IMG/VR virus record: IMGVR_UViG_3300024348_000072
Span: 1 to 47,935 of that record
Direction: 5' to 3' (one strand)
DNA: 47,935 bases
Source: a virus
This document shows positions 25,369 to 47,772 of the stretch, piece after piece. The notes below the pieces were generated by a model. It saw only the letters and a list, made by a program, of their open reading frames with translations, did no database searches and had not been told where the DNA came from. The position numbers and the translations under genes were made by a program. Numbering within the stretch: position 1 is the first letter of the stretch; each line of letters starts with the position of its first letter.

Positions 25369-26967
25369 TCAGAAACCTCCCAAACGCAACTGCTTTTCGC
25401 GGCGACGCTGGTCGTTGGACGCCTGCTTGAGCCAACCCATGCTTCCGACAGGAAAGCCCTTGGGCTCAGACAGGACCGGGACGCGAGCACCAAATTGTTT
25501 TGACAGACCAAGGCCGATGTAGGCCAGGGCGTCGACAAAGTCGTCATGCTTGGCAGACGGGAACTTGAGTAGTTCTTGCTCGGCATCCTGATACCAGGGG
25601 GCAAACCGGGGGAACTTGACCTTACCCATGGCCATACGGCCACGGATGGCCTGGGCTCGCGTCTGCTTGTCCTTAGCGGGGGTGACCTCGTCAATGGCCG
25701 CATAGATGCCTCGCTCCTGCATACGCTTACGCAAGAACGGACCGATGGACTTGGAAATGTGTCCGCGTTCCGCCCACCACATGAGCGGTTTGTACCGGTC
25801 AATCAGGTCAATCATGGCCTCGACGACGTCGTCTGTCTCGGCTCGACGCCACCAGATTTCAGGCAAAATCCAGATGTCATCGTTGCTGTCTACGCCGACG
25901 GGCAGCAAAACCGTGGCATCTCGGTCCTGGTCCGCCGACACAGCGTGGTCAGACGCGATGTAGACCATCAAATCCTTTGGCAATTCGTTGGGAAGATACC
26001 CCACCATCCAGTCTTTTCGGAAGAAATCGCCGTCCTCCGGGGCTGGCTGGCCTTGATACAGGGCCGCAAAGCCCCTGGGGTTCAACGACTTAGCTCGATT
26101 TAAGAAACTTTCGTCAAACCGTTCGGGCCACAGGGCTTCGCCGGGCTTACGACCCATTGGGTCGTCATTCACGGCCAGAGCCGGTAAAGCCAAAATCTTC
26201 CAATGCTTGGCCTCGTCTGCATTGAAATAGGGGTTCGTAGGGTCTGTCAGACGGCCGATAAGGTCGTCTTCGTGCCAGCGTGTCATGATGATGACGACAC
26301 GGCTGCCGACAGACATGAGTCGGGACATGGCGACGTCCGTGAACCACCCCCACATCTTGTCACGGGTTGATTTCGACTCTGCTTCGTCTCGGTCCTTGAT
26401 AGGGTCGTCGATGACAAGAAGGTCGGCACCACGTCCGGTCAAGGAGCCGCCACGACCGACGAACATAGCCTGGCCACCTTCGATTGTCTGAAGCTGTTCC
26501 GAAGACGCAGACCCCTTGCGGAGTTGGCAGCCTGGGAAAACCTGGCCGAAAACCGGCATCTGGACGATTTCTCGGACAGCACGACCGAAGTCTTTGGCGG
26601 TGTCCTCGTTGTAAGTAGCGAAGATGGTGTGACGATACGGGTCCTTGCCCATGAACCACGCCGGGAACCGGCGAGAAGCCAGTTCAGACTTACCATGACG
26701 CGGCGGCATCGTGATGATAAGCCGCTGGATAGAGCCCTTCTCCACTTCTTCGAGGGCTGCCGCGATGACTTCGTGGTGCTTGCACGCCGTGTACCTGGAC
26801 CTGTCGATGTCATCCGGGTCATCCGGGTCCGGCAGCGTCATCTTGGTGAACTCAAGAAGACTGGACCTGGCCCGCTTCAGCGACAGAAGTCGCTTTGCGG
26901 CCATAATTTGACGAGAGTAGGCCTCGATGGCCTCCTCTCGTGAGTATTCGGTTTTTTCCTCGGACAT
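25369..26967 (-). CDS. terL: Terminase large subunit
   Basis: A 532-residue DNA-packaging motor. The ATPase half carries the Walker A-like MPPRHGKSEL (about residues 87-96) and Walker B LLVIDD (183-188), preceded by GRGGSLTGRGAD. The nuclease half (RNase H-like) shows YIASDHAVSADQDRDATVLL and the C-terminal acidic motif HDDFVDALAY. It cuts concatemers and translocates DNA through the portal. The circularly permuted look of the window would fit headful packaging. The start overlaps the upstream 62-codon gene by one base (TGATG). Confidence 0.95.
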   Translation of the reverse strand: MSEEKTEYSREEAIEAYSRQIMAAKRLLSLKRARSSLLEFTKMTLPDPDDPDDIDRSRYTACKHHEVIAAALEEVEKGSIQRLIITMPPRHGKSELASRRFPAWFMGKDPYRHTIFATYNEDTAKDFGRAVREIVQMPVFGQVFPGCQLRKGSASSEQLQTIEGGQAMFVGRGGSLTGRGADLLVIDDPIKDRDEAESKSTRDKMWGWFTDVAMSRLMSVGSRVVIIMTRWHEDDLIGRLTDPTNPYFNADEAKHWKILALPALAVNDDPMGRKPGEALWPERFDESFLNRAKSLNPRGFAALYQGQPAPEDGDFFRKDWMVGYLPNELPKDLMVYIASDHAVSADQDRDATVLLPVGVDSNDDIWILPEIWWRRAETDDVVEAMIDLIDRYKPLMWWAERGHISKSIGPFLRKRMQERGIYAAIDEVTPAKDKQTRAQAIRGRMAMGKVKFPRFAPWYQDAEQELLKFPSAKHDDFVDALAYIGLGLSKQFGARVPVLSEPKGFPVGSMGWLKQASNDQRRREKQLRLGGF

Positions 26968-30453: not shown

Positions 30454-30469
30454 AGGATTTTGGCCAATG

Positions 30470-30497
30470 TTTATCGGCCTCAGACCGACATTTGCAA
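30470..30497 (-). promoter_or_regulatory. Putative promoter of terS
   Basis: On the minus strand TTGCAA (30497-30492), a 16-nt spacer and GATAAA (30475-30470), with the start codon 17 nt further on. It uses the same 16-nt spacing as the plus-strand promoter candidates. Four of six bases match the -10 consensus. Confidence 0.4.
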
Positions 30498-30529
30498 CAT
30501 CGAACTTGGCACCAATTTGTCGGTTCGAG

Positions 30530-30557
30530 TTGACAGACTGTCGGTGGTCTGCATGGT
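30530..30557 (+). promoter_or_regulatory. Putative promoter/operator of the plus-strand operon
   Basis: TTGACA (30530-30535), 16 nt, CATGGT (30552-30557), 26 nt before the AAA+ gene start. The -35 and spacer contain GACAGACTGTCGG (30532-30544), which matches the 13-bp operator motif at 10 of 13 positions and includes the perfect dyad GACAG-A-CTGTC. Confidence 0.45.
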
Positions 30558-30583
30558 GGTCCTCGCCAAACGGCATCCACACC

Positions 30584-32212
30584 ATGACCCACAACACCCC
30601 CACCAACGCCGAACCGACACTCGTCATCGGCATCACCCAGACCGCCCTGCAGACCGCCGGGCTGTCCTCGTCCGGCTCGACCAGCCAGACGGCCACCGCC
30701 CCCTCGGCCCAGAACAGCCGTGGCGGGTTCGGCAACGAGCCCTCCCCGGGTTCCGAGCCCGGCTCGTCCGGCCAGCCCGAGCAGGGCGGGCAACCCGCCC
30801 AAGTGGGCAACCCCAGCGGCCTGTCCGCTGGTGAGCCCAACGCCAACGCCACGGCCAACGCCCAGACGCAGACCCCCAGCGGTGCGTCCGACCCTCAGTC
30901 CGGCTCGTCCGGCGAACCGGGTCAGACGCCCGGCGAACCGGGTCAGACGCCCGGCGAGCCCAGCGAGCCCGGCCAGCAGGCAGGCGAGCCCGGCCAGACG
31001 CAGACCCCCAGCGGTGTGCCCACCCTGCCGGACGCCAGCGACCTCGAGGCTGAAATCGGCCCCCGGGGCCAGACCAAGGTGACCTCGGAAAACCGTGGTG
31101 CCGTCCGCAAGTGGCTGACCCGCAAGGGCGTGGCCTACAACCCGGAAGGTGCGTGCAAGGGTGCTGGCAAACTGTCCGTGTCCGAACTGTCTGCGGCCTA
31201 CAACGACACGACCGACCAGACCCTCCGGGACCTGCTCGCCCAGCAGGGCGGTCAGACCAGCCCTCAGACGAACGGTGCGAACCAGCCCCAGACGCCCTCC
31301 GGCCAACCCGAGCCCAAGCAGGCTCAGACGCCGCAGACGCCCAAGGCCCAGACGCCTACCCCCAGCGGCCTGCCCGAGCCCCTACCCAAGCCTGTGAAGG
31401 TGCCCTCGAACATCCGCAAACACGCCCTGCATGACGAGGCCGTGGACCTGCTCCAGCCCGGTGGCTTCGGGGTGTTCGTGTTCGGCCCGGCTGGTTCCGG
31501 CAAGACCACGCTGGCTCAGACGGTGGCTCAGACGCTCGGTCTGGAGTGCTACATCGCCGGGGCCGTCCAAAAGGACTTCAAGGTCCTCGGCTACAAGGAC
31601 GCCCGGGGCGAGTATCAGACCACGCCCTTCCGGCAGGCTTTCGAGCATGGTGGCCTGTTCCTGTTCGACGAAATCGACGCCTCCAACCCGCAGGTCCTGC
31701 TGGTGCTCAACGCCGCCTTGGCGAACGGCATCTGCGACTTCCCGGACCGCACCGTGAAGGCCCACCCCCGCTTCCGCTTCATCGCCTCGGCGAACACGAA
31801 TGGCGGCGGTGCGACTGCTCAATACTCGGGCCGTAACAAGTTGGACGCCGCCTCGCTTGACCGCTTCGCCGTCCTCGAGTGCGACTACGATGACGCCCTC
31901 ACGGACAGCGTGGTCCGTTCCTACGGTCTGACCGGGGCCATCCTCGAGGAAGCCCTCGAGTGGGTTGCCACCGTCCGGGACTACCGTCTGGCGGCTCGCC
32001 AGAACAGCGTGGACCTCGTGCTCAGCCCTCGTGCCGCCTTCTTCGGCGTCCGGGTGCTCGCCGCCGGAGGCAAGCAGTTCCGCAAGTGCAAGGACCTGCT
32101 CGACTGCTTCATCCTCAAGAAGGTGTCTGACCCCGAGGCTCGCAAGCGTCTGGCCAAACTCGGCGAGGCCGCTGTCAACGCTCGCCGCAACCCCGCCCAG
32201 CCGACCGCCTAA
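30584..32212 (+). CDS. CobS/MoxR-like AAA+ ATPase with long disordered N-terminus
   Basis: A 542-residue protein. Residues 1-150 are low-complexity, rich in Ser, Gly, Pro, Gln and Thr, with tandem PGEPGQT units. A small folded segment follows (about 150-215: ENRGAVRKWLTRKGVAYNP). After a second Pro/Gln/Thr linker comes the AAA+ domain, with Walker A GPAGSGKTT (301-309), Walker B LFLFDEID (D362-E363) and sensor I SANTN (402-406). AAA+ proteins of this type remodel partner proteins, usually with a von Willebrand A partner; the next gene is the obvious candidate partner. I start at ATG 30584, 26 nt after a promoter-like sequence; an in-frame ATG at 30467 would place the promoter inside the gene. 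First gene of the plus operon. Confidence 0.85.
   Translation: MTHNTPTNAEPTLVIGITQTALQTAGLSSSGSTSQTATAPSAQNSRGGFGNEPSPGSEPGSSGQPEQGGQPAQVGNPSGLSAGEPNANATANAQTQTPSGASDPQSGSSGEPGQTPGEPGQTPGEPSEPGQQAGEPGQTQTPSGVPTLPDASDLEAEIGPRGQTKVTSENRGAVRKWLTRKGVAYNPEGACKGAGKLSVSELSAAYNDTTDQTLRDLLAQQGGQTSPQTNGANQPQTPSGQPEPKQAQTPQTPKAQTPTPSGLPEPLPKPVKVPSNIRKHALHDEAVDLLQPGGFGVFVFGPAGSGKTTLAQTVAQTLGLECYIAGAVQKDFKVLGYKDARGEYQTTPFRQAFEHGGLFLFDEIDASNPQVLLVLNAALANGICDFPDRTVKAHPRFRFIASANTNGGGATAQYSGRNKLDAASLDRFAVLECDYDDALTDSVVRSYGLTGAILEEALEWVATVRDYRLAARQNSVDLVLSPRAAFFGVRVLAAGGKQFRKCKDLLDCFILKKVSDPEARKRLAKLGEAAVNARRNPAQPTA
30911..30952 (+). repeat. Two 21-bp tandem repeats in the AAA+ gene
   Basis: The 21-bp unit beginning GGCGAACCGGGTCAGACG occurs twice head to tail and encodes GEPGQTP twice. 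Partial, diverged units follow (GEPSEPGQ, GEPGQTQ). Each unit contains CAGAC. It is likely to vary in copy number through slippage. Confidence 0.8.
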
Positions 32213-32227
32213 CCCAACCGCAGACAA

Positions 32228-32254
32228 GCCTGCTCGCCATGACGGCGGGCAGGC
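32228..32254 (+). other. Strong intergenic hairpin after the AAA+ gene
   Basis: GCCTGC-T-CGCC, loop ATGAC, GGCG-G-GCAGGC form an 11-bp stem (one U-G pair) 15 nt after the ATPase stop. There is no U-run after it, so it is more likely an RNA stabiliser or attenuator than a terminator. It occupies the same relative position (just after a stop codon) as the two ribozymes downstream. Confidence 0.6.
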
Positions 32255-32289
32255 CCCTGCACCCTCTCCCCCAAACACACACAACACAC

Positions 32290-33231
32290 ATGGCCCTCAT
32301 CGACCCAACCACGCTCCCTCGCCACAAGGAAAAGCGTTTCTACCAAACCCCCGGCGTCTGTCTGAAGTCCGACTTCAGCAACGCAGACCGCAGTAAGAAC
32401 TATGTTCTGCTCGAGGCAGACAGCATCACCTCCTACCTCAAGTGGCAGGCCGAGTGCGAGTCCACGACCTCCGGCTGGCGTGAGTCCCGGTCTGCGTCTG
32501 CCAAGCAGTCGTGGGACCTCAAGGCCGGATGGGACGGCTTTCAGACGCTCGTGTCTGACGGCTGGCCCAAAGGCGTGGCCAAACTCAAGACCGCTGTCGC
32601 CGCCCTGCCCTCGTCCATCGGCTTCGGACGAGTCCCGGACTCGGATGTATGCGGTGACTCGCTCAACATCCCGGCGTTCGTGGCTGGTGACCCCTGCCAT
32701 TGGGACTGCGACCCGGACGAGGACGCAAGCCTCGGACAGACCAAGGTCATCCGTCTGATTGTCCCGGTCGGTGCCCTCGCCGGATACGATGCGGACTACC
32801 TCTACAACCGAGGTGCGGCGGTCGTGGCCTGCATCCGTAGCATCGAGGCCGCTGGCTACCAATGCGAGGTCTGGGCCGAGTCTGCGAGCAAGTCTGCCCC
32901 CGAGGCTGTCTGTCAGCGAGTGAAGGTGAAGCACGCCGGAGCCTCGCTCGACCTCAACAACCTCGCTGTCTGGCTGGCTCACCCTGCGGCCTTCCGCCGA
33001 GGCTTCTTCTCTGGTCGTGAGTGCCTCTGGTCTGTGCAGACGCCGCAGGGTAGCGTGGACGGTCTGCTGGGCGGCTACGGTGGCACCTGCTACGGCCCCA
33101 CGGCTGACCTCGAGGCCGGGACCATCTACCTGCCCCTCGCCGCCCACGGACGGAACGGCACGCCGCAGGCCAGCCTCGAGACGCTGTCTGCCGTGTTCGC
33201 CAAGGCCGGGTTCCTGCTCAAGTTCAACTAA
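32290..33231 (+). CDS. Companion protein of the AAA+ ATPase (DUF7192-like?)
   Basis: A 313-residue protein starting MALIDPTTLPRHKEKRFYQT. The central part has GWPKGVAKLKTAVAALPS, a motif DPCHWDCDPDED, and an alternating strand-helix region (RGAAVVACIRSIEAAGYQCE) resembling one half of a Rossmann/vWA-like fold; a clear DxSxS metal site is not seen. The C-terminus contains GLLGGYGGTCYGPTADLEAG. Similar proteins occur beside MoxR/CobS-like ATPases in other phages; I recall the label DUF7192, but cannot verify it. It may be the substrate or vWA-like partner of the ATPase. It follows after 77 bp with a C/A-rich leader (CAAACACACACAACACAC), no Shine-Dalgarno. Confidence 0.75.
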   Translation: MALIDPTTLPRHKEKRFYQTPGVCLKSDFSNADRSKNYVLLEADSITSYLKWQAECESTTSGWRESRSASAKQSWDLKAGWDGFQTLVSDGWPKGVAKLKTAVAALPSSIGFGRVPDSDVCGDSLNIPAFVAGDPCHWDCDPDEDASLGQTKVIRLIVPVGALAGYDADYLYNRGAAVVACIRSIEAAGYQCEVWAESASKSAPEAVCQRVKVKHAGASLDLNNLAVWLAHPAAFRRGFFSGRECLWSVQTPQGSVDGLLGGYGGTCYGPTADLEAGTIYLPLAAHGRNGTPQASLETLSAVFAKAGFLLKFN

Positions 33232-33243
33232 GCAGACAGACAA

Positions 33244-33293
33244 GGACGAAACGCCGTGAGGCGTCCGTGGGTTAGGCCCACGCTGACGAGTCC
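33244..33293 (+). ncRNA. Type II hammerhead ribozyme 1
   Basis: The full three-way junction is visible. Stem II: GGAC (33244-33247) with GTCC (33290-33293). GAAA at 33248-33251. Stem III: CGCC-GTGA-GGCG (33252-33263). Cleavage UC at 33264-33265. Stem I: CGTGGG-TTAGG-CCCACG (33266-33282). Then CTGACGA (33283-33289), matching the invariant CUGANGA. Every core position (CUGANGA, GAAA, UH) is present, and stem II is the open helix, so this is type II. Predicted self-cleavage is after C33265, 34 nt past the upstream stop codon (33231) and 73 nt before the next start (33339). Two other gaps in the operon carry, respectively, a second ribozyme and a plain hairpin. Confidence 0.9.
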
Positions 33294-33338
33294 AGACGCA
33301 AGCACTCAGACACTCTCACCCAAACCCAACAGACACAC

Positions 33339-33590
33339 ATGGACTACAACACCCGCCAACACCTCCACATCCTCGTCCGTGAACTCGACGACGCCCACCT
33401 CCGGGTCCCGGTCGCCTACACTCACACGGAACTCGCCCACAAGGAACTCAAGCGTCTGCAGACGGAAGGCGTGACCGGGCCGGAACTCGCCTCGGCAGAC
33501 GCTCGCTACAAGGCGTCCCTCGACTACTACGCCTCGTGCATCACCTGCCTCGACCGCACCCGCAAGGAACTCGCCGAGGCCATCGGCTAA
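33339..33590 (+). CDS. 83-residue helical protein of unknown function
   Basis: A small charged protein (MDYNTRQHLHILVRELDDAH), predicted mostly helical with possible coiled coil and two Cys in CITCLDRTRKELAEAI. No family recognised. It is the first gene after hammerhead ribozyme 1 and so would be the first cistron of the released 3' RNA, with a 73-nt leader. The leader ends in CCAACAGACACAC, C/A-rich, without Shine-Dalgarno. Confidence 0.7.
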   Translation: MDYNTRQHLHILVRELDDAHLRVPVAYTHTELAHKELKRLQTEGVTGPELASADARYKASLDYYASCITCLDRTRKELAEAIG

Positions 33591-33627
33591 TCAGACAGAC
33601 AACCTTTCATCCCAACCCAGACACACC

Positions 33628-33873
33628 ATGAAGACCAAGAAACTCATCCGTTCCCTGCTCGACGAAATCGAGGTCGCTAAGGACAAGGTCAGCGACTGCG
33701 AGCGTGAATACATCCGGGCATCGTCTGCCCACAACCGTCTGCTCAACCAGACGGACGACGGCGAGCGTCTGGGCAAGACCCACGCCCGGTGCAACGAGGC
33801 CGTCAGACGCTGGACCGAGGCGAGCGACTTGCTCGACGACCTCCAGACCAAACTCGACACCCTTCTCTCCTAA
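33628..33873 (+). CDS. 81-residue coiled-coil protein
   Basis: A charged helical protein (MKTKKLIRSLLDEIEVAKDK ... LLDDLQTKLDTLL) with heptad-like leucines, probably a two-helix coiled coil. No family recognised. Leader CCCAGACACACC, no Shine-Dalgarno. It lies in the run of small genes between the two ribozymes. Confidence 0.7.
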   Translation: MKTKKLIRSLLDEIEVAKDKVSDCEREYIRASSAHNRLLNQTDDGERLGKTHARCNEAVRRWTEASDLLDDLQTKLDTLLS

Positions 33874-33889
33874 CCCAGACACAGACACC

Positions 33890-34561
33890 ATGAGCACCTA
33901 TCGCATCTTCAAGCGGGATAGCCACAAGGCCCTTCCCATCGACACAGACACGAGCAAGCCGGAGGGCCCCGGTCTGGGTCGGAACAACCGCACGCTGGCT
34001 GAGCGTGCCGAGTGGGCGTTGACCGAGAGCATCCGGGACTACCTCCCGCCTGTCCGAGGCATCTCGCTCGACCACGACGGAGCCCGCCCGCATCACGGAG
34101 CACACCGCAGACAGTTGGACGACTTCGGGGCCGCACATTATGTTGAGCGTGCACGCCACGAGGTCCTGCTCACCGTCTGTCTGACCGAGTGCGGTGACGG
34201 CATCCGGGAACTCGGCTGGGAGGGCGTCATCCTCAGACAGCACTTCGGCTCCTGTCTGTGTGTGCATGGCCCGGTCGGCCAGCCGCCTGTCCGCAACAGC
34301 GTGACGGACGGTCTGGTTGTCTGCACTCGTATCGGGAAAGTCACGACAGACGACATTCTCGACCGCTGTTTGCAGGACCGCATCGTCTGCTTGCTCAATC
34401 GCAAGTTCGTCCCGGCACACGCCACCTACTTGGGCTTCGGCGTCTGCAAGGAGGCACCCGACCGGGCAATCATCCGCATCACCGTCCAAGTGACCAAGAA
34501 GAAAGCGGTGACCTTCACTCTCGGTCTGTTGCCCGGCGTCGAACAGCCGTGGATTTTCTGA
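33890..34561 (+). CDS. 223-residue protein of unknown function
   Basis: Start MSTYRIFKRDSHKALPIDTD at ATG 33890, 16 nt after the previous stop. The protein is mixed alpha/beta with many His and Cys residues (HDGARPHHGAHRRQLDDFGA; EVLLTVCLTECGDGIRELGW; VGQPPVRNSVTDGLVVCTRI). The Cys/His content could bind metal, but no recognised zinc-finger spacing is present. No family recognised. It ends just before a promoter-like TTGACA at 34568. Confidence 0.7.
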   Translation: MSTYRIFKRDSHKALPIDTDTSKPEGPGLGRNNRTLAERAEWALTESIRDYLPPVRGISLDHDGARPHHGAHRRQLDDFGAAHYVERARHEVLLTVCLTECGDGIRELGWEGVILRQHFGSCLCVHGPVGQPPVRNSVTDGLVVCTRIGKVTTDDILDRCLQDRIVCLLNRKFVPAHATYLGFGVCKEAPDRAIIRITVQVTKKKAVTFTLGLLPGVEQPWIF

Positions 34562-34567
34562 ACCCAC

Positions 34568-34595
34568 TTGACAACCTACACTTTGTCGGCATAGT
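34568..34595 (+). promoter_or_regulatory. Putative internal promoter/operator
   Basis: TTGACA (34568-34573), 16 nt, CATAGT (34590-34595), 25 nt before ATG 34621. The spacer holds CCTACACTTTGTC (34575-34587), 11 of 13 identical to the operator copy at 548-560. Same architecture as the operator-bearing promoters at 30530 and 562. Confidence 0.45.
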
Positions 34596-34620
34596 GCCCA
34601 ATCTCCAACCCACCCAGAAC

Positions 34621-34980
34621 ATGACGCAACCCAATGAAAACAAGCCCACGGACAACCTGTGGGAGTCCACCAACAAGGCGACTCACGACCGCCTTCTCAA
34701 CCGAGTCCGTGTCGGCTACAACGCCGCCGTTGACTCGCTCGAAAACCTCGAGGCTCTCCGGGTCAAACTCGACTCGGCAATCTCGCAGGCTCAAGCCGCA
34801 AGGGACACGCTCAAGGACGCCGACTTTTACCTGTCCGTCTATGACTACGAGCAGGTTGACCCTCGCTGTGCTGACGCCCGGGGCTTCCTCCTGTCTGCCT
34901 ACCTCGGTCTGTCTGTCCTTGGCTCGCTCAAATCCAAGGTGAGCATCCCGGACGACACCGCCTACCGCCCGAACGCCTAA
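34621..34980 (+). CDS. 119-residue helical protein of unknown function
   Basis: Start MTQPNENKPTDNLWESTNKA. Two or three long helices (NAAVDSLENLEALRVKLDSA; QAQAARDTLKDADFYLS) suggest a coiled-coil bundle, and the C-terminal GFLLSAYLGLSVLGSLKSKV is moderately hydrophobic. No family recognised. It may be read from its own promoter at 34568 as well as from the upstream operon. Leader CCAACCCACCCAGAAC. Confidence 0.7.
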   Translation: MTQPNENKPTDNLWESTNKATHDRLLNRVRVGYNAAVDSLENLEALRVKLDSAISQAQAARDTLKDADFYLSVYDYEQVDPRCADARGFLLSAYLGLSVLGSLKSKVSIPDDTAYRPNA

Positions 34981-35023
34981 CCCACCCACTCACCCCCAGA
35001 CACACCTCCACACACATACGAAC

Positions 35024-35452
35024 ATGAGCGAACCCACTCCCACCATCCACGCCGCCTTCATCCGGGAACACCTCAACGAGCACCTGCTCGGGTCTGAGGT
35101 CCTCCCGCTGTTCAACACCGGACGCATCGTCATCACGAACGGTCTGCAGGACCGCTTCGGCGAGCAGACGCTCGACCTCGTGGCCGAACTGCTGACCGCC
35201 CACTCGTGTTGCTATTGGGGCAACGCCCTTCCGGCTGGCGATTGGCAGTCGAACGACGACCCGGGCAACATCGAACGCTTCGAGCGTCTGCCGTCTGAGC
35301 ATGGCAAGGACTACGAGCCTCGTGCCCTGCACATCCCGGGGCGTGTCCTCGCCTCGTGGCGTTTCCCGAAAGAGAGCGAGTCCGTCTGGGTCATCACCGA
35401 GTCCGGCGACAACGGCTTCGTGACGACCGTCCTCCTGCCCAGCGAATACTAA
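35024..35452 (+). CDS. 142-residue protein of unknown function
   Basis: Start MSEPTPTIHAAFIREHLNEH. Mixed alpha/beta with CCYWGNALPAGDWQSN and a C-terminal hairpin-like ESESVWVITESGDNGFVTTV. No family recognised. The start lies in the context ATACGAACATGA, which is repeated exactly at the gene starting at 35872. Confidence 0.7.
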   Translation: MSEPTPTIHAAFIREHLNEHLLGSEVLPLFNTGRIVITNGLQDRFGEQTLDLVAELLTAHSCCYWGNALPAGDWQSNDDPGNIERFERLPSEHGKDYEPRALHIPGRVLASWRFPKESESVWVITESGDNGFVTTVLLPSEY

Positions 35453-35467
35453 CCTACAAACTGTCGC

Positions 35468-35495
35468 TTGACAAACATCACAACCCAGCAATACT
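35468..35495 (+). promoter_or_regulatory. Putative internal promoter
   Basis: TTGACA (35468-35473), 16 nt, AATACT (35490-35495; four of six consensus bases). Transcription would start almost at ATG 35504, giving a near-leaderless mRNA. The extended block GTCGCTTGACA (35463-35473) recurs on the minus strand at 39200-39190, beside the 36-bp palindrome. Confidence 0.4.
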
Positions 35496-35503
35496 TCCCA
35501 CCT

Positions 35504-35830
35504 ATGGCTAAAACCTCCAACAAACTCAAGGCCCTCGACGCCGCCCTCTCGGCGGTGCTCGGGGCTTACATCGAACTGCGAGACAAGGAAAAGGACCCCG
35601 CCCCCTTCAACCGGGTGCTGGCCACGGACGACCCCTTCGCCGACCTCGCCAACAAGTGCGTCAAGGCGTTCACGGACGCCGGTCACCCGGTCACCATCCC
35701 GCTTCTGGCCAGCCTGTGCCGGACCGCCTACACAGACAGCAAGCGTAAGGACAAGTATGCGTTCCCCATCGAACGCTTCGACGCCCAGACGCTCATCGAC
35801 CTGTCTGTCTGGTTCGCCTCCAACCGATAA
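35504..35830 (+). CDS. 108-residue helical protein of unknown function
   Basis: Start MAKTSNKLKALDAALSAVLG. Helical throughout (DPFADLANKCVKAFTDAGHP; FDAQTLIDLSVWFA), soluble. No family recognised. An upstream in-frame ATG at 35468 coincides with the promoter-like TTGACA and is less likely as a start. Confidence 0.7.
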   Translation: MAKTSNKLKALDAALSAVLGAYIELRDKEKDPAPFNRVLATDDPFADLANKCVKAFTDAGHPVTIPLLASLCRTAYTDSKRKDKYAFPIERFDAQTLIDLSVWFASNR

Positions 35831-35871
35831 CTTTCCACCCACCCAGAAATAACAACCCAGCAAATACGAAC

Positions 35872-36420
35872 ATGACGAACAGCAACGACAAGAACCCCAG
35901 CAACGGCAAACCGCCCGAGCACGCCATCGCCACGAGCCCGCAGGACCTGCTCAACTTCCTCGGCTTCATCAGCAAGGGCACGCTCATCGGGGCCGTGACC
36001 GCCGCCGCCATCAAGGACGACCTCACCAAGTTGGTGAAGGCCCTCGACGACGGACAGACGGCAGACGCCAAGGCTCACGCAGACCAAATCCGGCAGGGCC
36101 TCAACCTGCTCGGCAAGGCTGTCTGCACCCTCGGTCAGACCATCGTCCGTCACGACGAATACATCACCCGCAAATGCGAGGAGCGTGGTATCCCTGTGAC
36201 GAGCGTGTCTGAGAACCTCATCGAGACTTTCAAGTTGTCCGGCGAGGACTTCCTCAAGTCCTTCTTCGAGGAGGCCAAGGGCAACGGCTTCGTGGAGGAG
36301 CCGAACGGTCCGTCCAAGAAGAAGGGCAAGTCCGCAGACAAGCCCGGCTACAAGGACAAGAACTTCGACCCGCACGACCGCTTGGACGGCTTCGACCCGG
36401 ACAAGCATCGGTTCAACTAA
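35872..36420 (+). CDS. 182-residue protein of unknown function
   Basis: Start MTNSNDKNPSNGKPPEHAIA. A disordered N-terminus is followed by a helical core (LTKLVKALDDGQTADAKAHA; LNLLGKAVCTLGQTIVRHDE) and a charged, disordered C-terminus rich in Lys, Asp and Pro. No family recognised. Its TAA stop (36418-36420) directly abuts hammerhead ribozyme 2, so self-cleavage would leave this mRNA a very short 38-nt 3' end after the stop. Confidence 0.7.
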   Translation: MTNSNDKNPSNGKPPEHAIATSPQDLLNFLGFISKGTLIGAVTAAAIKDDLTKLVKALDDGQTADAKAHADQIRQGLNLLGKAVCTLGQTIVRHDEYITRKCEERGIPVTSVSENLIETFKLSGEDFLKSFFEEAKGNGFVEEPNGPSKKKGKSADKPGYKDKNFDPHDRLDGFDPDKHRFN

Positions 36421-36487
36421 GGCCGAAACATCAGACGGAGTCATGGCCGTCTGGTGTCCGTGGAGTTACGCTCCCGCTGACGAGGCC
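36421..36487 (+). ncRNA. Type II hammerhead ribozyme 2
   Basis: Same permuted order as ribozyme 1. Stem II: GGCC (36421-36424) with GGCC (36484-36487). GAAA (36425-36428). Stem III: CATCAGACGG (36429-36438) with CCGTCTGGTG (36447-36456), 10 bp including one U-G, loop of 8 nt. Cleavage UC (36457-36458). Stem I: CGTGGAG-TTACG-CTCCCG (36459-36476), with U36461 bulged. Then CTGACGA (36477-36483). All core positions are intact. Stems II and III differ in sequence from ribozyme 1 while the core is kept, as expected for a conserved RNA. Predicted cleavage is after C36458, 51 nt before ATG 36510. Confidence 0.9.
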
Positions 36488-36509: not shown

Positions 36510-36968
36510 ATGCTGCACAAGCACACACCCAAGAGCGAACCCACCCCGGGGACGCAGAACCACCGAGGCAGGCCCCGCCTGTCCCTCTCCCGGCTCACCA
36601 CCGCCTCCGGCATCCGGCAGGCGGTGAAGCGTGACCTCGTCACGCTCGAGCAGGCAAACGACCAGACGGTCAAGGCCCTGCACAAGTGCGGCGACCTGCT
36701 GTCGTCCCTGTTCGGCCAGACCCACGGCGTCCCCGCTGGTCTGACGACCGAGACGCACCGCATCGCCCTCGTGGTCGAGGTCATCTCCTGTCTGCACGAC
36801 TCGGCGACCAAGGTCCACGAGGTCATCGACTCCCGCAAGCCCGACCGCACCGCCGGACGGTCTGACGAGGTGCTCGCCAAGGCCCGGGCCAAACGCTGGT
36901 CCAAGGCCAAGCGGTCCAAGTCGGCCAAAGCGGCGTGGGCTCGCCGCAAAGGAAAGGAGGTGGCGTGA
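36510..36968 (+). CDS. 152-residue basic protein of unknown function
   Basis: Start MLHKHTPKSEPTPGTQNHRG. The N-terminus is basic and disordered (RGRPRLSLSR), the middle helical (TTETHRIALVVEVISCLHDS), and the C-terminus strongly basic and histone-like (KAKRSKSAKAAWARRKGKEV), suggesting nucleic-acid binding. No family recognised. First gene after ribozyme 2; its stop overlaps the next start (TGATG). Confidence 0.7.
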   Translation: MLHKHTPKSEPTPGTQNHRGRPRLSLSRLTTASGIRQAVKRDLVTLEQANDQTVKALHKCGDLLSSLFGQTHGVPAGLTTETHRIALVVEVISCLHDSATKVHEVIDSRKPDRTAGRSDEVLAKARAKRWSKAKRSKSAKAAWARRKGKEVA

Positions 36969-38075: not shown

Positions 38076-38083
38076 GCGTCAAA

Positions 38084-38113
38084 GGGTCAGCCTCCGGGCT
38101 GGCCCTTTTTTTT
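38084..38113 (+). terminator. Rho-independent terminator of the plus operon
   Basis: GGGTCAGCC - TCCG - GGCTGGCCC (one U-G pair) at 38084-38105 followed by eight T. It also contains the 3' end of the convergent rusA gene: the minus-strand copy of the T-run encodes the KKK-like C-terminus and the stop codon (38087-38089) lies inside the stem. Confidence 0.92.
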
Positions 38114-40733: not shown

Positions 40734-40953
40734 CGGAGCGAGGACGCTTGGGTCCCATCTGGGGTTTGGGAACGGGGAGCCCGTTCTTCTTGCACCAGCG
40801 GTAGATGCGGTTGCGTCCGATGCGGTGCCTGTCTTCGATGGCCCGGATAGAGCCGGTCCGTAGGGCGGACTCGTAAAGCGTCCGCAGCATGTTGTGCTGC
40901 TGGTCGTCTGTCATCCGCTCGAAGGCGGAAGACTGTCTGGTCTTGTTGCTCAT
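40726..40953 (-). CDS. Small helix-turn-helix protein
   Basis: A 75-residue protein with a helix-turn-helix pattern: GSIRAIEDRHRIGRNRIYRW followed by CKKNGLPVPKP, similar to resolvase/transposase-type or Fis-like HTH units. It may be a transcription regulator or DNA-binding accessory. It is coupled to the primase-helicase gene by ATGA. A second candidate, besides the 76-residue HTH protein, for binding the repeated operator. Confidence 0.7.
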   Translation of the reverse strand: MSNKTRQSSAFERMTDDQQHNMLRTLYESALRTGSIRAIEDRHRIGRNRIYRWCKKNGLPVPKPQMGPKRPRSDA

Positions 40954-43235
40954 TTGGTCTGGATGATGCGTTTGGTGTTGTTGTCGTAGGAGAAGTTATC
41001 CCAATTCGGGACGTCGAGGTAGGCACCGGACGAGAGTTCGGCACCGTCCGAGTCCGTGGCATAGTTGCCGGTCGGAATGTCGAGCCACTTCTTGTCCTTA
41101 GTTCCCTTGGCCGCACATGATACGACCACTTCCTTCATCATGAGCCTGCTGACAAGCGACTCGAACTCATGGGCACCGGTCTGTCTGAGCACCAGCGGGA
41201 GTTCCGAGCGTCGGCGATACACGCCTGACTTGGCGTTCTTGCCTTCGATGGAGTAGGGGTGGCCTCGCTCGGCGGCATGCCGGATGGCAAAGATGAGCCA
41301 AGCCTCACGCTCGCCCATGTTGATGGAGTTGAACAGGTCGTCCTTGGTCACGTCTGTCAGCAGGCCGGATGGCTGTCTCAGCAGGGTGAGTTCGCTGTCC
41401 AGCATCTCCGGGTTGTTCGCCTTGATGATGGCCAACTTCCACAGCATCCCACGCTTGGGGCTGAGTTTCATGGCCGTCATGCGACGCTCGTAGTCAGACG
41501 AGTGCCAGATGCCGATGACGGAACGGAAGGCCGCAGGCAACGCAGACGAGCCACGGACGGCGGCCTTCATGTCCTCTGTGTTGCGGATGGGTTCATCGCC
41601 CGGCTTGCGGACGTGGTGGGTGATGATGAGGGCGGAGCCGAGTTCACCGCAGACCTGCGAGGCCACACGGATGAACTCATTGATGACCGTGGCCGAGTTC
41701 TCCTCTCCGTGCATGACGGAGTTGAGCGTATCCATGACCACCAGACGAAGGTCCTTCAGTTGTCTGAGGTGGCCCATGAGTTCCATCCACTTCTTTGACG
41801 GGCGGGACTCCTGTGTCTTCGGGTCTTTGTCCACGAGTGCGAACGAACCTCCGGAGTTGATGAGGGGCAGGATGACAAGTTTGTCTGCGGCTGCGAACCG
41901 CATGCCGTCAGGGTCGATTTCGGTCAGACGGATGTGTAGTTCCTCTTGGTCGTCTTCGGTCGTGATGATGACCGCGGTGCCACCCTGCATGACATTGTGG
42001 CCACACCATGTCTGAGGTCCGCACGACTCGGTCGCAGCGACCTTGAGTGCGAGGTCCAGCATAAGGAAGGTCTTACCGGCACCGCCTTCGGCGACAAGCA
42101 TCTGGTGCTTGCCTGCGAGGACGACCTTATCGACGAGGAACTTACGCTTAGGTGGGGTGCCATGAGCCCAGCGGTGAGCCGCCCAAGCAAGCAGGCCCTG
42201 CCCTTCATCGGATACGATGGGTTTCTCGGGCTCCGGCATAGGTCCATGTGAGTGCAGGTCCTTGCGGAAGATGGCGTTGAACTCCTTGATGGCCCTTTGC
42301 AGGGGCCAAGGCGGGAGCATCTTGGCGTCCATCCAGCCGATGGTCCGCTCGAGGGCCTCCTGCTCGGTGAGTTCGCCTCGCCTTACCGCTGTGATGAACA
42401 TGCCTGCGACCCGGGAGAACTGCGACCATCTGGTCATGTCTCCGTCGCCGCCTTCATGGACTTCATCGCTTAGGTTTAGAGCCCGAAACTCGCCCTGCTG
42501 CGTGTCCGCAGAGGTCCCCTTCTTCCGCTCCACGGCCTGGCCAGGCATCGGCTGCATCTGTCTGACTACATCAGACACATGCTCCGGGTGGTAGCCGTAG
42601 TCCTTGTTGTGCTCACGGATTTCGACGAGCGTCATCTTGCCGTTCTTGCCGTGGACGGAACCTGCCAGACGGATAGGCTGGTGGGCCCGACCGTAGGGGT
42701 TGGACTCGACGCCCTTGCCGAACTGAGGGTCGCCACCGACCTTGGCGGCGAGTTCATCACGGATGCCTACGACCTCGGCTGTTTCGCCGGGACGCCGGGA
42801 CAGGCCGAAGTAGACGTGCAACTTGTCCTTGCCCTGCTCCGTCTGACCACCGGATGCGACCACCATGGTCGGCTCCATACCGGCTTTGCGGATGTGGTCC
42901 ACGGCACCCCAAGGGTTGCCGCTATCAATGTCGCAACAGACGGTGTCAAAGCGAATGACGTTCGATGACGTAGCCTCCGGCTGGGACAGCACGGCGGGAA
43001 CGACGAACGCACCGATGCCGTGGGAGTTCCACCGCAGGACATGCTGGTAGACCACTTGGGCGAGGTTATCTGGGCAGTCGAGGGCTGGCTGGATGAGGAT
43101 GTTCTCAGCGAACACGCCCTCACGCTCGGTGCCCTTCTCGCCGATGCCACGCAGACATAGCCACTCGCCTGCGGCGAAAGGTGTCCTAAACAGCAGACCG
43201 AGGTGGTCGCTGACCGATTGAAAATGGGGGGTCAT
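40950..43235 (-). CDS. Primase-polymerase / RepA-like helicase fusion
   Basis: A 761-residue replication protein. N-terminal part resembles archaeo-eukaryotic primases (prim-pol): DxD in VCCDIDSG (D102, D104), KLHVYF (H140) and IRLAGSVHGK (about 188-197). C-terminal part is a RecA-fold RepA/AAA_25-type ATPase: Walker A AEGGAGKT (382-389), VIITTEDDQEE, Walker B LVVMDTLN (D502), and IITHHVRKPGDEP with RGSSALPAAFRSV. It probably primes and unwinds at the phage origin. As no phage DNA polymerase is present, elongation would use the host replisome. It lies in a tight operon, 1 bp from the upstream gene. Confidence 0.85.
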   Translation of the reverse strand: MTPHFQSVSDHLGLLFRTPFAAGEWLCLRGIGEKGTEREGVFAENILIQPALDCPDNLAQVVYQHVLRWNSHGIGAFVVPAVLSQPEATSSNVIRFDTVCCDIDSGNPWGAVDHIRKAGMEPTMVVASGGQTEQGKDKLHVYFGLSRRPGETAEVVGIRDELAAKVGGDPQFGKGVESNPYGRAHQPIRLAGSVHGKNGKMTLVEIREHNKDYGYHPEHVSDVVRQMQPMPGQAVERKKGTSADTQQGEFRALNLSDEVHEGGDGDMTRWSQFSRVAGMFITAVRRGELTEQEALERTIGWMDAKMLPPWPLQRAIKEFNAIFRKDLHSHGPMPEPEKPIVSDEGQGLLAWAAHRWAHGTPPKRKFLVDKVVLAGKHQMLVAEGGAGKTFLMLDLALKVAATESCGPQTWCGHNVMQGGTAVIITTEDDQEELHIRLTEIDPDGMRFAAADKLVILPLINSGGSFALVDKDPKTQESRPSKKWMELMGHLRQLKDLRLVVMDTLNSVMHGEENSATVINEFIRVASQVCGELGSALIITHHVRKPGDEPIRNTEDMKAAVRGSSALPAAFRSVIGIWHSSDYERRMTAMKLSPKRGMLWKLAIIKANNPEMLDSELTLLRQPSGLLTDVTKDDLFNSINMGEREAWLIFAIRHAAERGHPYSIEGKNAKSGVYRRRSELPLVLRQTGAHEFESLVSRLMMKEVVVSCAAKGTKDKKWLDIPTGNYATDSDGAELSSGAYLDVPNWDNFSYDNNTKRIIQTK

Positions 43236-43520: not shown

Positions 43521-44296
43521 GATGGGATGTTGTCGTTGGTATCGGTTGTAGGTTTAGGAGACTTGTGGCACCGGGTGGCGTAGTCGCAGAACTTGCAGCC
43601 GAAGTTGGCCGGGTCTTGTGAGAACTTGGTCAGTTCATCGGGCGTCTGAGACGAGATGATGCGGACGGCCTTGTCGATAAGTTGCTGGGCCGCGTAGGTG
43701 TCGAGGCGGATGACCTCTGCGTAGACATCGCCGGTGTCGCGGTTGAGGCAGGTGAACAGACAGAACTCAAGGTTGAGGTGAGCCATGTATGTCTGAGCCT
43801 GTGCCCAATAGACGAACTTGGACTCCTTGATACCCTTGGACACGACGTCCTTGAAGGACTTGGAACCGAGTGCCTTGTTCTCCCATAGGGCTGGCCACTT
43901 GATGCCGTCCATGTCTGGACCGCCGTGGATGATGCCGTCGAGGTGACCCTTTAGACGCCCCCCTGCGGCCTCGAAGCCGAACTGCTTGCCCTCCGGATTG
44001 TGCGTGACCAGCAGGAAGCCTGCGGCCTTGAGATACTCTGCCATACGGTCTTCGCCGTCGTGGCCCATGTCGAAGATGCGGATGGTCTTGCCCTTGAAGT
44101 CAGAGCCTTCATCCTTTGGCAGTTGGTGATACTCATAGCCGAGGGCACGCTCACAATGATGGCCCCAGCGGGACGCACCAAGATACTTGCGTGGTGCCTG
44201 CGACTTGTTCCTCTTGACGCAAGCGTCATCGAGAAGCGATGACAGCCTTTCACTCAAGCCGGGCGGCTTGGGCTTCTCTGCTGAGAAGATGCTCAT
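43508..44296 (-). CDS. Cas4/AddB-like PD-(D/E)XK nuclease with Fe-S-type cysteines
   Basis: A 262-residue RecB-type nuclease. The active-site motifs are GHLDG (D120) and WENK (E139, K141), then SKFVYWAQAQTYM (QxxxY helix). Four cysteines are placed as in 4Fe-4S nucleases: C48, then C234-x2-C237-x5-C243 (GCKFCDYATRC). The spacing equals the Cas4/AddB pattern. It probably acts as an exonuclease in recombination with the Sak4-like ATPase and ssDNA-binding protein of the same operon. ATG 44296 chosen; it overlaps the upstream gene by one base (TGATG). The frame is open further upstream without good sense. Confidence 0.85.
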   Translation of the reverse strand: MSIFSAEKPKPPGLSERLSSLLDDACVKRNKSQAPRKYLGASRWGHHCERALGYEYHQLPKDEGSDFKGKTIRIFDMGHDGEDRMAEYLKAAGFLLVTHNPEGKQFGFEAAGGRLKGHLDGIIHGGPDMDGIKWPALWENKALGSKSFKDVVSKGIKESKFVYWAQAQTYMAHLNLEFCLFTCLNRDTGDVYAEVIRLDTYAAQQLIDKAVRIISSQTPDELTKFSQDPANFGCKFCDYATRCHKSPKPTTDTNDNIPSWLK

Positions 44297-46884: not shown

Positions 46885-47772
46885 TTATTTGGTTTCCGCC
46901 TTGTTGTTGTTGGACACGTCGGCCGTAAGGCTGGTAATCAGCGTGGTGTCGAGTCGCTTGCCCTCGCGGATTTTCCGCATGAGCATGCCAAGGTCCGGGG
47001 CTTCGACACATTCGAGTCGGCCGGAGCGGTCTTTGGCGGGGTATCCCCATTCATTATCCTGTCTGCAGACGAAGGCACGCTGGACGCCGGTGTCGGTCTT
47101 GAACGTCTGGAGCGTGATGACTTGGTCGAAGATGCCCGGGAGTTCGCGTGCCGTAGCAGAGCCCTCAATCTGGGGGGTGTAGACGTCACGACCGAACTCG
47201 TCCTTCTCCTTGTCGAGGATGCCGACGAGGATGGTGGAACGGTCAGAGTGCTGGAGGTGGGTCAGCCAACGGATGAGTTCAGACTTGAGGGTGCCATAGG
47301 CGGCACGCTTGTCCAACTTACCATTCTTATCGGACATGGACGACGGCTGCGTCTGAGCCCACTCGAACGCCAGACGGCTGGCCACGGTGATGGAGTCGAC
47401 GTAGATGTTCTTGTATTTGGCGAGCGAGGCTGCGTCGCCAAAGGCCTCGTGTGCACACAGACGCTTGTACGTCTCGATGCCGTAGTGGCCGTTGGGGTCG
47501 CTGGGGTCCGGGCCGCAGATGAACAGGGTGAGAGCACGGCAGTATTCCCACGGATGGATGCCGAGGGCGGATGCCTGCTTGCGAACGTCGACGACGTCAC
47601 CGGCCCAGTCTTGGATGGCAAGAGTGCCAGCCTCGAGGTCGACGAACAGCGTGTCGTTCGGGTTGAGCGTGCGGGCCTGCGTCGTCTTGCCGACGCCGCT
47701 GGGACCGAACATGACGATGTTGACTTTGGGGACGACCTTGAGGCGGTCGTCGGCCTTGATGATGCCTTTCAT
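46885..47772 (-). CDS. RecA-fold ATPase, AAA_24 / Sak4-like
   Basis: A 295-residue ATPase with Walker A GPSGVGKTT (23-31), the acidic strand LFVDLEAGT and a Walker B-like NIYVDSIT (D126), followed by TILVGILDKEKDEFGR. This fits the phage AAA_24/Sak4 group, single-strand annealing or RecA-like recombinases that work with SSB. Neighbours (DUF669 ssDNA-binding protein, Cas4-like nuclease) support a recombination role. The C-terminal 25 residues are disordered. Leader CCATCCACACACAACAC, no Shine-Dalgarno. Confidence 0.85.
   Translation of the reverse strand: MKGIIKADDRLKVVPKVNIVMFGPSGVGKTTQARTLNPNDTLFVDLEAGTLAIQDWAGDVVDVRKQASALGIHPWEYCRALTLFICGPDPSDPNGHYGIETYKRLCAHEAFGDAASLAKYKNIYVDSITVASRLAFEWAQTQPSSMSDKNGKLDKRAAYGTLKSELIRWLTHLQHSDRSTILVGILDKEKDEFGRDVYTPQIEGSATARELPGIFDQVITLQTFKTDTGVQRAFVCRQDNEWGYPAKDRSGRLECVEAPDLGMLMRKIREGKRLDTTLITSLTADVSNNNKAETK

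Follow-up and report, generated by a model that had tools for sequence, protein, structure and literature searches.

We analyzed a viral DNA of 47,935 nt (positions 1 to 47,935 of IMG/VR record IMGVR_UViG_3300024348_000072, the whole of which is referred to here as the window) and confirm, at the level of sequence, that nucleotides 33244-33293 constitute a complete type II (circularly permuted) hammerhead ribozyme, denoted ribozyme 1. The window also holds a second type II hammerhead, ribozyme 2. We think it very probable that the two act in cis to split transcripts of the + strand gene block of this phage, with the predicted cleavage leaving both new RNA ends capped by hairpins and the gene blocks uncoupled.

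An original prediction, made from the letters of the sequence, had proposed a type II hammerhead at this position, and our analysis supports that interpretation. All invariant core bases and three stems in type II order were read directly at 33244-33293, and the predicted fold agrees. Stem II is formed over 4 bp by the strands GGAC (33244-33247) and GUCC (33290-33293), the core comprises GAAA (33248-33251), U33264, C33265 and CUGACGA (33283-33289), stem III is a 12-nt hairpin (CGCC-GUGA-GGCG, 33252-33263), and stem I is a 17-nt hairpin with 6 bp (CGUGGG-UUAGG-CCCACG, 33266-33282). The A15.1-U16.1 pair and the CUGANGA, GAAA and UH elements of the core can be read in both ribozymes and, by reading and by fold, loops close stems I and III in both while stem II is open. 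The fold program reproduced the three stems of ribozyme 1 at -23 kcal/mol, with a z of only -1.85, so that the fold energy alone is no proof of the element. A structural scan for the full core and perfect stems returned ribozyme 1 as the sole match in the window (chance 0.013 per shuffled strand). With a covariance model (R1) built from 34 aligned related viral hammerheads, none from the window, ribozyme 1 scored 62.4 bits (E 8e-17) and ribozyme 2 34.3 bits (E 3.5e-8), followed by a third-best match in the window at 14.6 bits. The predicted cut after C33265, and a predicted downstream product that has a 5´-OH and begins with the stem I hairpin, both fit the sequence, its conservation in relatives, and published phage hammerheads (PMC3088659).

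As had been noted, ribozyme 1 lies between two protein genes, with the DUF7192 gene upstream and a run of small genes downstream (Table 1). Ribozyme 2, also in a gene gap and on the same strand, has a 28-nt stem III hairpin and a stem I with a bulged U, and its cut is predicted after C36458. The conserved A that precedes its stem II doubles as the final base of the UAA stop codon of the upstream gene. The original prediction had the mRNA split once, between the AAA+ and companion genes and the small genes; the placement stands, while the single cut does not, since the block contains two ribozymes. With ribozyme 2 at 36421-36487 the one cut becomes two, and the transcript would therefore fall into three parts, namely the AAA+ and DUF7192 genes, the small genes of 33339-36420, and the genes from 36510 onward. 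Both ribozymes would cleave themselves and may thereby affect expression. Judged from gene orientation only, the gene block would be one transcript; two promoter-like sites (10/12 matches) lie between the ribozymes on the + strand, at 34568-34595 and 35468-35495, the former in a stretch adjoining a gene block that is missing from a close relative, L248. A strong intrinsic-terminator-like hairpin at 38081-38108 (12 pairs followed by TTTTT) is likely the end of the + strand gene block. Unlike in most relatives, no Shine-Dalgarno sequence was evident at the window genes that start 45 and 22 nt past the ribozymes, and family searches with the 83-aa frame at 33339-33590 gave no match. The neighboring small genes are preceded by similar leaders (AACCCAACAGACACACCATG-like, at 33300-33340 and 33591-33630), and the absence of whole genes at such places from L248 and from a second close relative, L249, suggests that cassettes are lost or gained by recombination between leaders.

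Table 1. Positions of the ribozymes, key nucleotides and flanking genes in the window
Feature	Position	Strand	Basis or remark
AAA+ ATPase gene (CobS-like), upstream of ribozyme 1	30467..32212	+	Pfam AAA_5; phrog_249
DUF7192 protein gene	32239..33231	+	Pfam PF23822; stop 12 nt upstream of ribozyme 1
A33243, predicted Hoogsteen partner of U33272 (loop I base 1)	33243	+	Base identity; contact proposed by analogy
Hammerhead ribozyme 1, type II order	33244..33293	+	Direct reading, fold, structural scan, covariance model
Ribozyme 1 predicted cleavage site, after C33265	33265..33266	+	UH step position in core
83-aa reading frame, first after ribozyme 1	33339..33590	+	ORF list; start 45 nt downstream of ribozyme 1
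182-aa reading frame	35872..36420	+	UAA stop immediately precedes ribozyme 2
Hammerhead ribozyme 2, type II order	36421..36487 (model match 36420-36487)	+	Relaxed scan, covariance model
152-aa reading frame, first after ribozyme 2	36510..36968	+	Start 22 nt downstream of ribozyme 2

Both ribozymes are kept in L249, which is 88-94% identical to the window over this region and differs by one base inside each ribozyme, in loop I in both cases; the 83-aa frame is missing from the corresponding place. In L248, ribozyme 1 is unchanged and the contig ends within ribozyme 2. When more distant relatives were sought with proteins, the same three contigs came back (94-95% identical), and conservation in the lineage thus rests on very few genomes. 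A model search found no such hammerhead in the nearest named phages by terminase, Mae-Yong1326-1 and RHph_N65, indicating that the element is not essential in the lineage. The terminase is 54.5% identical to that of the Microcystis phage Mae-Yong1326-1, with a similar gene layout (25369-26967, 30467-32212 and 40950-43235), and an integrase at 591-1655 suggests a temperate phage.

Two pattern scans of IMG/VR that fixed only the core and an open stem II each returned at least 120 stretches. Stems I and III were left unconstrained, and both formed in 137 of the 148 GGAC-core matches listed, vs 7 of 2960 shuffles. With one base of the core changed, the pattern had 0 matches in the whole of IMG/VR, compared to at least 120 for the intact core. 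The compensatory changes by which the stems were to be judged are also present, with 13 of 15 pairs altered on both sides among 34 relatives, for which stems were required when the rows were picked. Where loci held multiple hammerheads, all elements were on one strand in 84 of the 85 loci listed. The same pattern gave only 27 stretches in a bacterial and archaeal genome collection of 257 billion bases, which fits an element that is mainly viral. When the surrounding 2 kb was compared to named phages by BLAST, one spot was conserved, the ribozyme itself, found in unannotated gaps of the Streptomyces phages phiRKBJ001 and Wentworth; the structural scan detected further type II hammerheads in the loci of these two phages and in phages Yara, Spernnie and R4. 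Pseudomonas HPP-Temi, Enterobacter BHUENT9 and Rhizobium RR1-A were rejected as carriers, the scanner having found no hammerhead at their partial BLAST matches to a 69-base query. Contigs of Phycicoccus jejuensis and Streptomyces iakyrus each contain three hammerheads, spaced alike in the two contigs but in opposite orientation; the two genome projects may have sequenced one and the same prophage, or a phage contaminant. In the literature searched, nothing was found on actinobacteriophage hammerheads.

In five annotated phages, the model found 38 elements, each sharing the strand of the genes around it. Gene overlap was at most 12 nt for 30 of the 38, and the median distance to the next start was 14.5 nt. 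For phiRKBJ001, Wentworth and Yara, 18 of 20 model matches end 10-15 nt upstream of a start codon. Three of the eight elements with greater overlap sit on very short frames of phage R4, gp60.1, gp67.1 and gp75.1 (41762-41845, 44125-44217 and 47073-47174 of that record), which are probably annotation artefacts. Among subclass members on viral contigs (the subclass is described below), a ribosome site plus start was found within 60 nt for 189 of 216, vs 24% in shuffles. Collectively, this placement at gene boundaries supports a role in mRNA processing. In phage Spernnie, two hammerheads lie back to back in one gene gap, at 2436-2495 and 2505-2556, separated by 9 nt; the RNA between the cuts of such a tandem pair would be excised as a fragment of ~70 nt.

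The type II elements scanned fall into two structural groups. The first corresponds to the consensus published for type II: its stem I is longer, its stem II often has 3 bp, and loop I pairs with the tail more than expected. The second, which includes ribozyme 1, has a 6-bp stem I closed by a loop of 5-6 bases, a stem II that mostly spans 4 bp, and loop I-tail pairing no higher than expected. For ribozyme 1 itself, the search for a loop I-tail pseudoknot of at least four pairs gave a longest run of two, and in the class with a GAC stem II a pseudoknot was found in 9 of 157 elements, vs 6.2 expected. Among the 227 distinct members of the second group, loop I opens with U in 218, an A directly precedes stem II in 206, and 205 have both, with neither base set in any search pattern. 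Ribozyme 1 has the contact bases of the sTRSV hammerhead (a U beside pair 1.6 and an A ahead of the stem II 3´ strand). By analogy, the subclass may keep the A-U Hoogsteen contact of sTRSV with stem II open. We rejected the idea that type I and type III phage hammerheads are equally strict about the final A of loop II, since only 41 of 125 among the matches listed have it.

These structural groups bear on the one proposed check that went the other way, the call by Rfam. At the gathering threshold neither ribozyme was called in the window, where the 37-bit cut-off of Hammerhead_II (RF02276) was not reached, and the best match at a relaxed threshold was to Hammerhead_3 (13.9 bits, E 6.7). By the letter of the check this would count against the element, and we attribute it to the model: among the loci scanned, Hammerhead_II passes 1 of 46 members of the subclass with a U-initial loop and 6-bp stem I vs 31 of 42 other type II elements, explaining why Rfam is silent on ribozyme 1. 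We tentatively suggest, giving it a little less than an even chance, that phages widely use a distinct pseudoknot-free type II subclass with the satellite-virus A-U contact and no stem II loop, that its members are arranged in series at gene boundaries, a short way upstream of ribosome-binding sites, as a general means of splitting mRNAs with hairpins on both new ends, and that the subclass has mostly escaped annotation through the failure of the reference model to detect it. Some members may already be listed in the supplementary alignments of Perreault et al. 2011.

For the window, we favor a mechanism in which the RNA would fold as polymerase passes, stems III and I forming as local hairpins and stem II closing last, with the active fold resting on the putative Hoogsteen contact between A33243 and U33272, not on a tail pseudoknot. 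The RNA would then cut itself after C33265 and C36458, resolving read-through transcripts into an AAA+/DUF7192 piece, a middle small-gene piece and the remainder. Upstream mRNAs would end in the stem III hairpin with a 2´,3´-cyclic phosphate and downstream mRNAs would begin with the stem I hairpin and a 5´-OH; both product ends would be hairpin-capped because the type II order puts the cut between two hairpins. The ends would thus be capped while the gene blocks become uncoupled in expression or decay. Types I and III would cap one side only, and type II would suit the splitting of mRNAs without destabilization. Such a constitutive split could be replaced by tuning of the downstream genes if cleavage were conditional on ions, temperature or ribosome traffic, or if it triggered decay of one product. 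Salt-dependent tuning has been proposed for a halovirus hammerhead located 13 nt upstream of a helicase gene (PMC3088659), and the elements of related phages are near start codons. We nevertheless consider regulation of this kind unlikely, given that no conserved extra domain or ligand-binding region was found and that the flanks, past one base, are near background in composition.

Another explanation is that the ribozymes are selfish or related to recombination, spreading among phage gene cassettes and cleaving without benefit to the phage. The genes between and beside the ribozymes vary among close relatives, and other phages carry many copies per genome, as might be expected of such elements. 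This is, however, quite improbable: the sequence of the stems varies freely while pairing and core are kept and the one-base core mutant is absent from the collection, indicating selection for the active structure, and the sequences of copies inside a single phage diverge, which would not be expected if a mobile element had recently multiplied. We give hardly any credence to the view that the stretch resembles a ribozyme by chance or is the hairpin of a transcription terminator. The silence of Rfam at threshold and the unremarkable fold energy could point that way, but the shuffle, stem and core-mutant controls all oppose it. As for a terminator, no terminator-like site with a T-run was found at ribozyme 1 or 2.

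The kind of element is not new. Perreault et al. 2011 described type II hammerheads next to phage genes, reporting that they form clusters there, undergo cleavage in vitro as well as in E. coli, and might cut long phage transcripts into operon- or gene-length mRNAs (PMC3088659). The same study found that many hammerheads are without the pseudoknot, for which other interactions, or none, may serve, and left open how these hold the active fold and what purpose phage hammerheads have (PMC3088659). To the first question the subclass offers a testable answer, an A-U contact at two named bases; for the second, culturable Streptomyces phages carry 6-10 copies each at gene boundaries. For annotation, the present Rfam type II model misses most of the subclass.

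Several known systems can be compared with the window element. Theta ribozymes of gut phages (PMC10879173) are likewise small self-cleaving RNAs that process phage transcripts, but have an HDV-like fold and are linked to tRNAs, whereas no tRNA gene was found in the window. HHphage of haloviruses HF1 and HF2 is, like ribozyme 1, a hammerhead that closely precedes a gene within a polycistronic viral transcript, and its authors regard a 5´ end mapped on the RNA as in line with cleavage in vivo (PMC3088659); it differs in having a core variant and an archaeal virus as its carrier, and the salt-tuning idea is specific to it. The crystal structure of the type III sTRSV hammerhead revealed a Hoogsteen pair common to both natural hammerhead classes, between the A that ends the stem II loop and the U next to residue 1.6 (PMC2553840). 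The window element shares the A before the stem II 3´ strand and the U next to pair 1.6, but sTRSV has stem II closed by a tetraloop and stem III open, whereas the window element has an open stem II and a stem III hairpin; the sTRSV class processes circular satellite RNA, while the window element is in phage mRNA. Finally, the type II hammerheads of RF02276 and PMC3088659 have the same core and permutation, and a phage or prophage likewise carries several of them, which flank its genes on the coding strand; their published consensus and Rfam model feature a loop I-tail pseudoknot, whereas the window element has a 6-bp stem I, a short U-initial loop, a 4-bp stem II and no such pairing.
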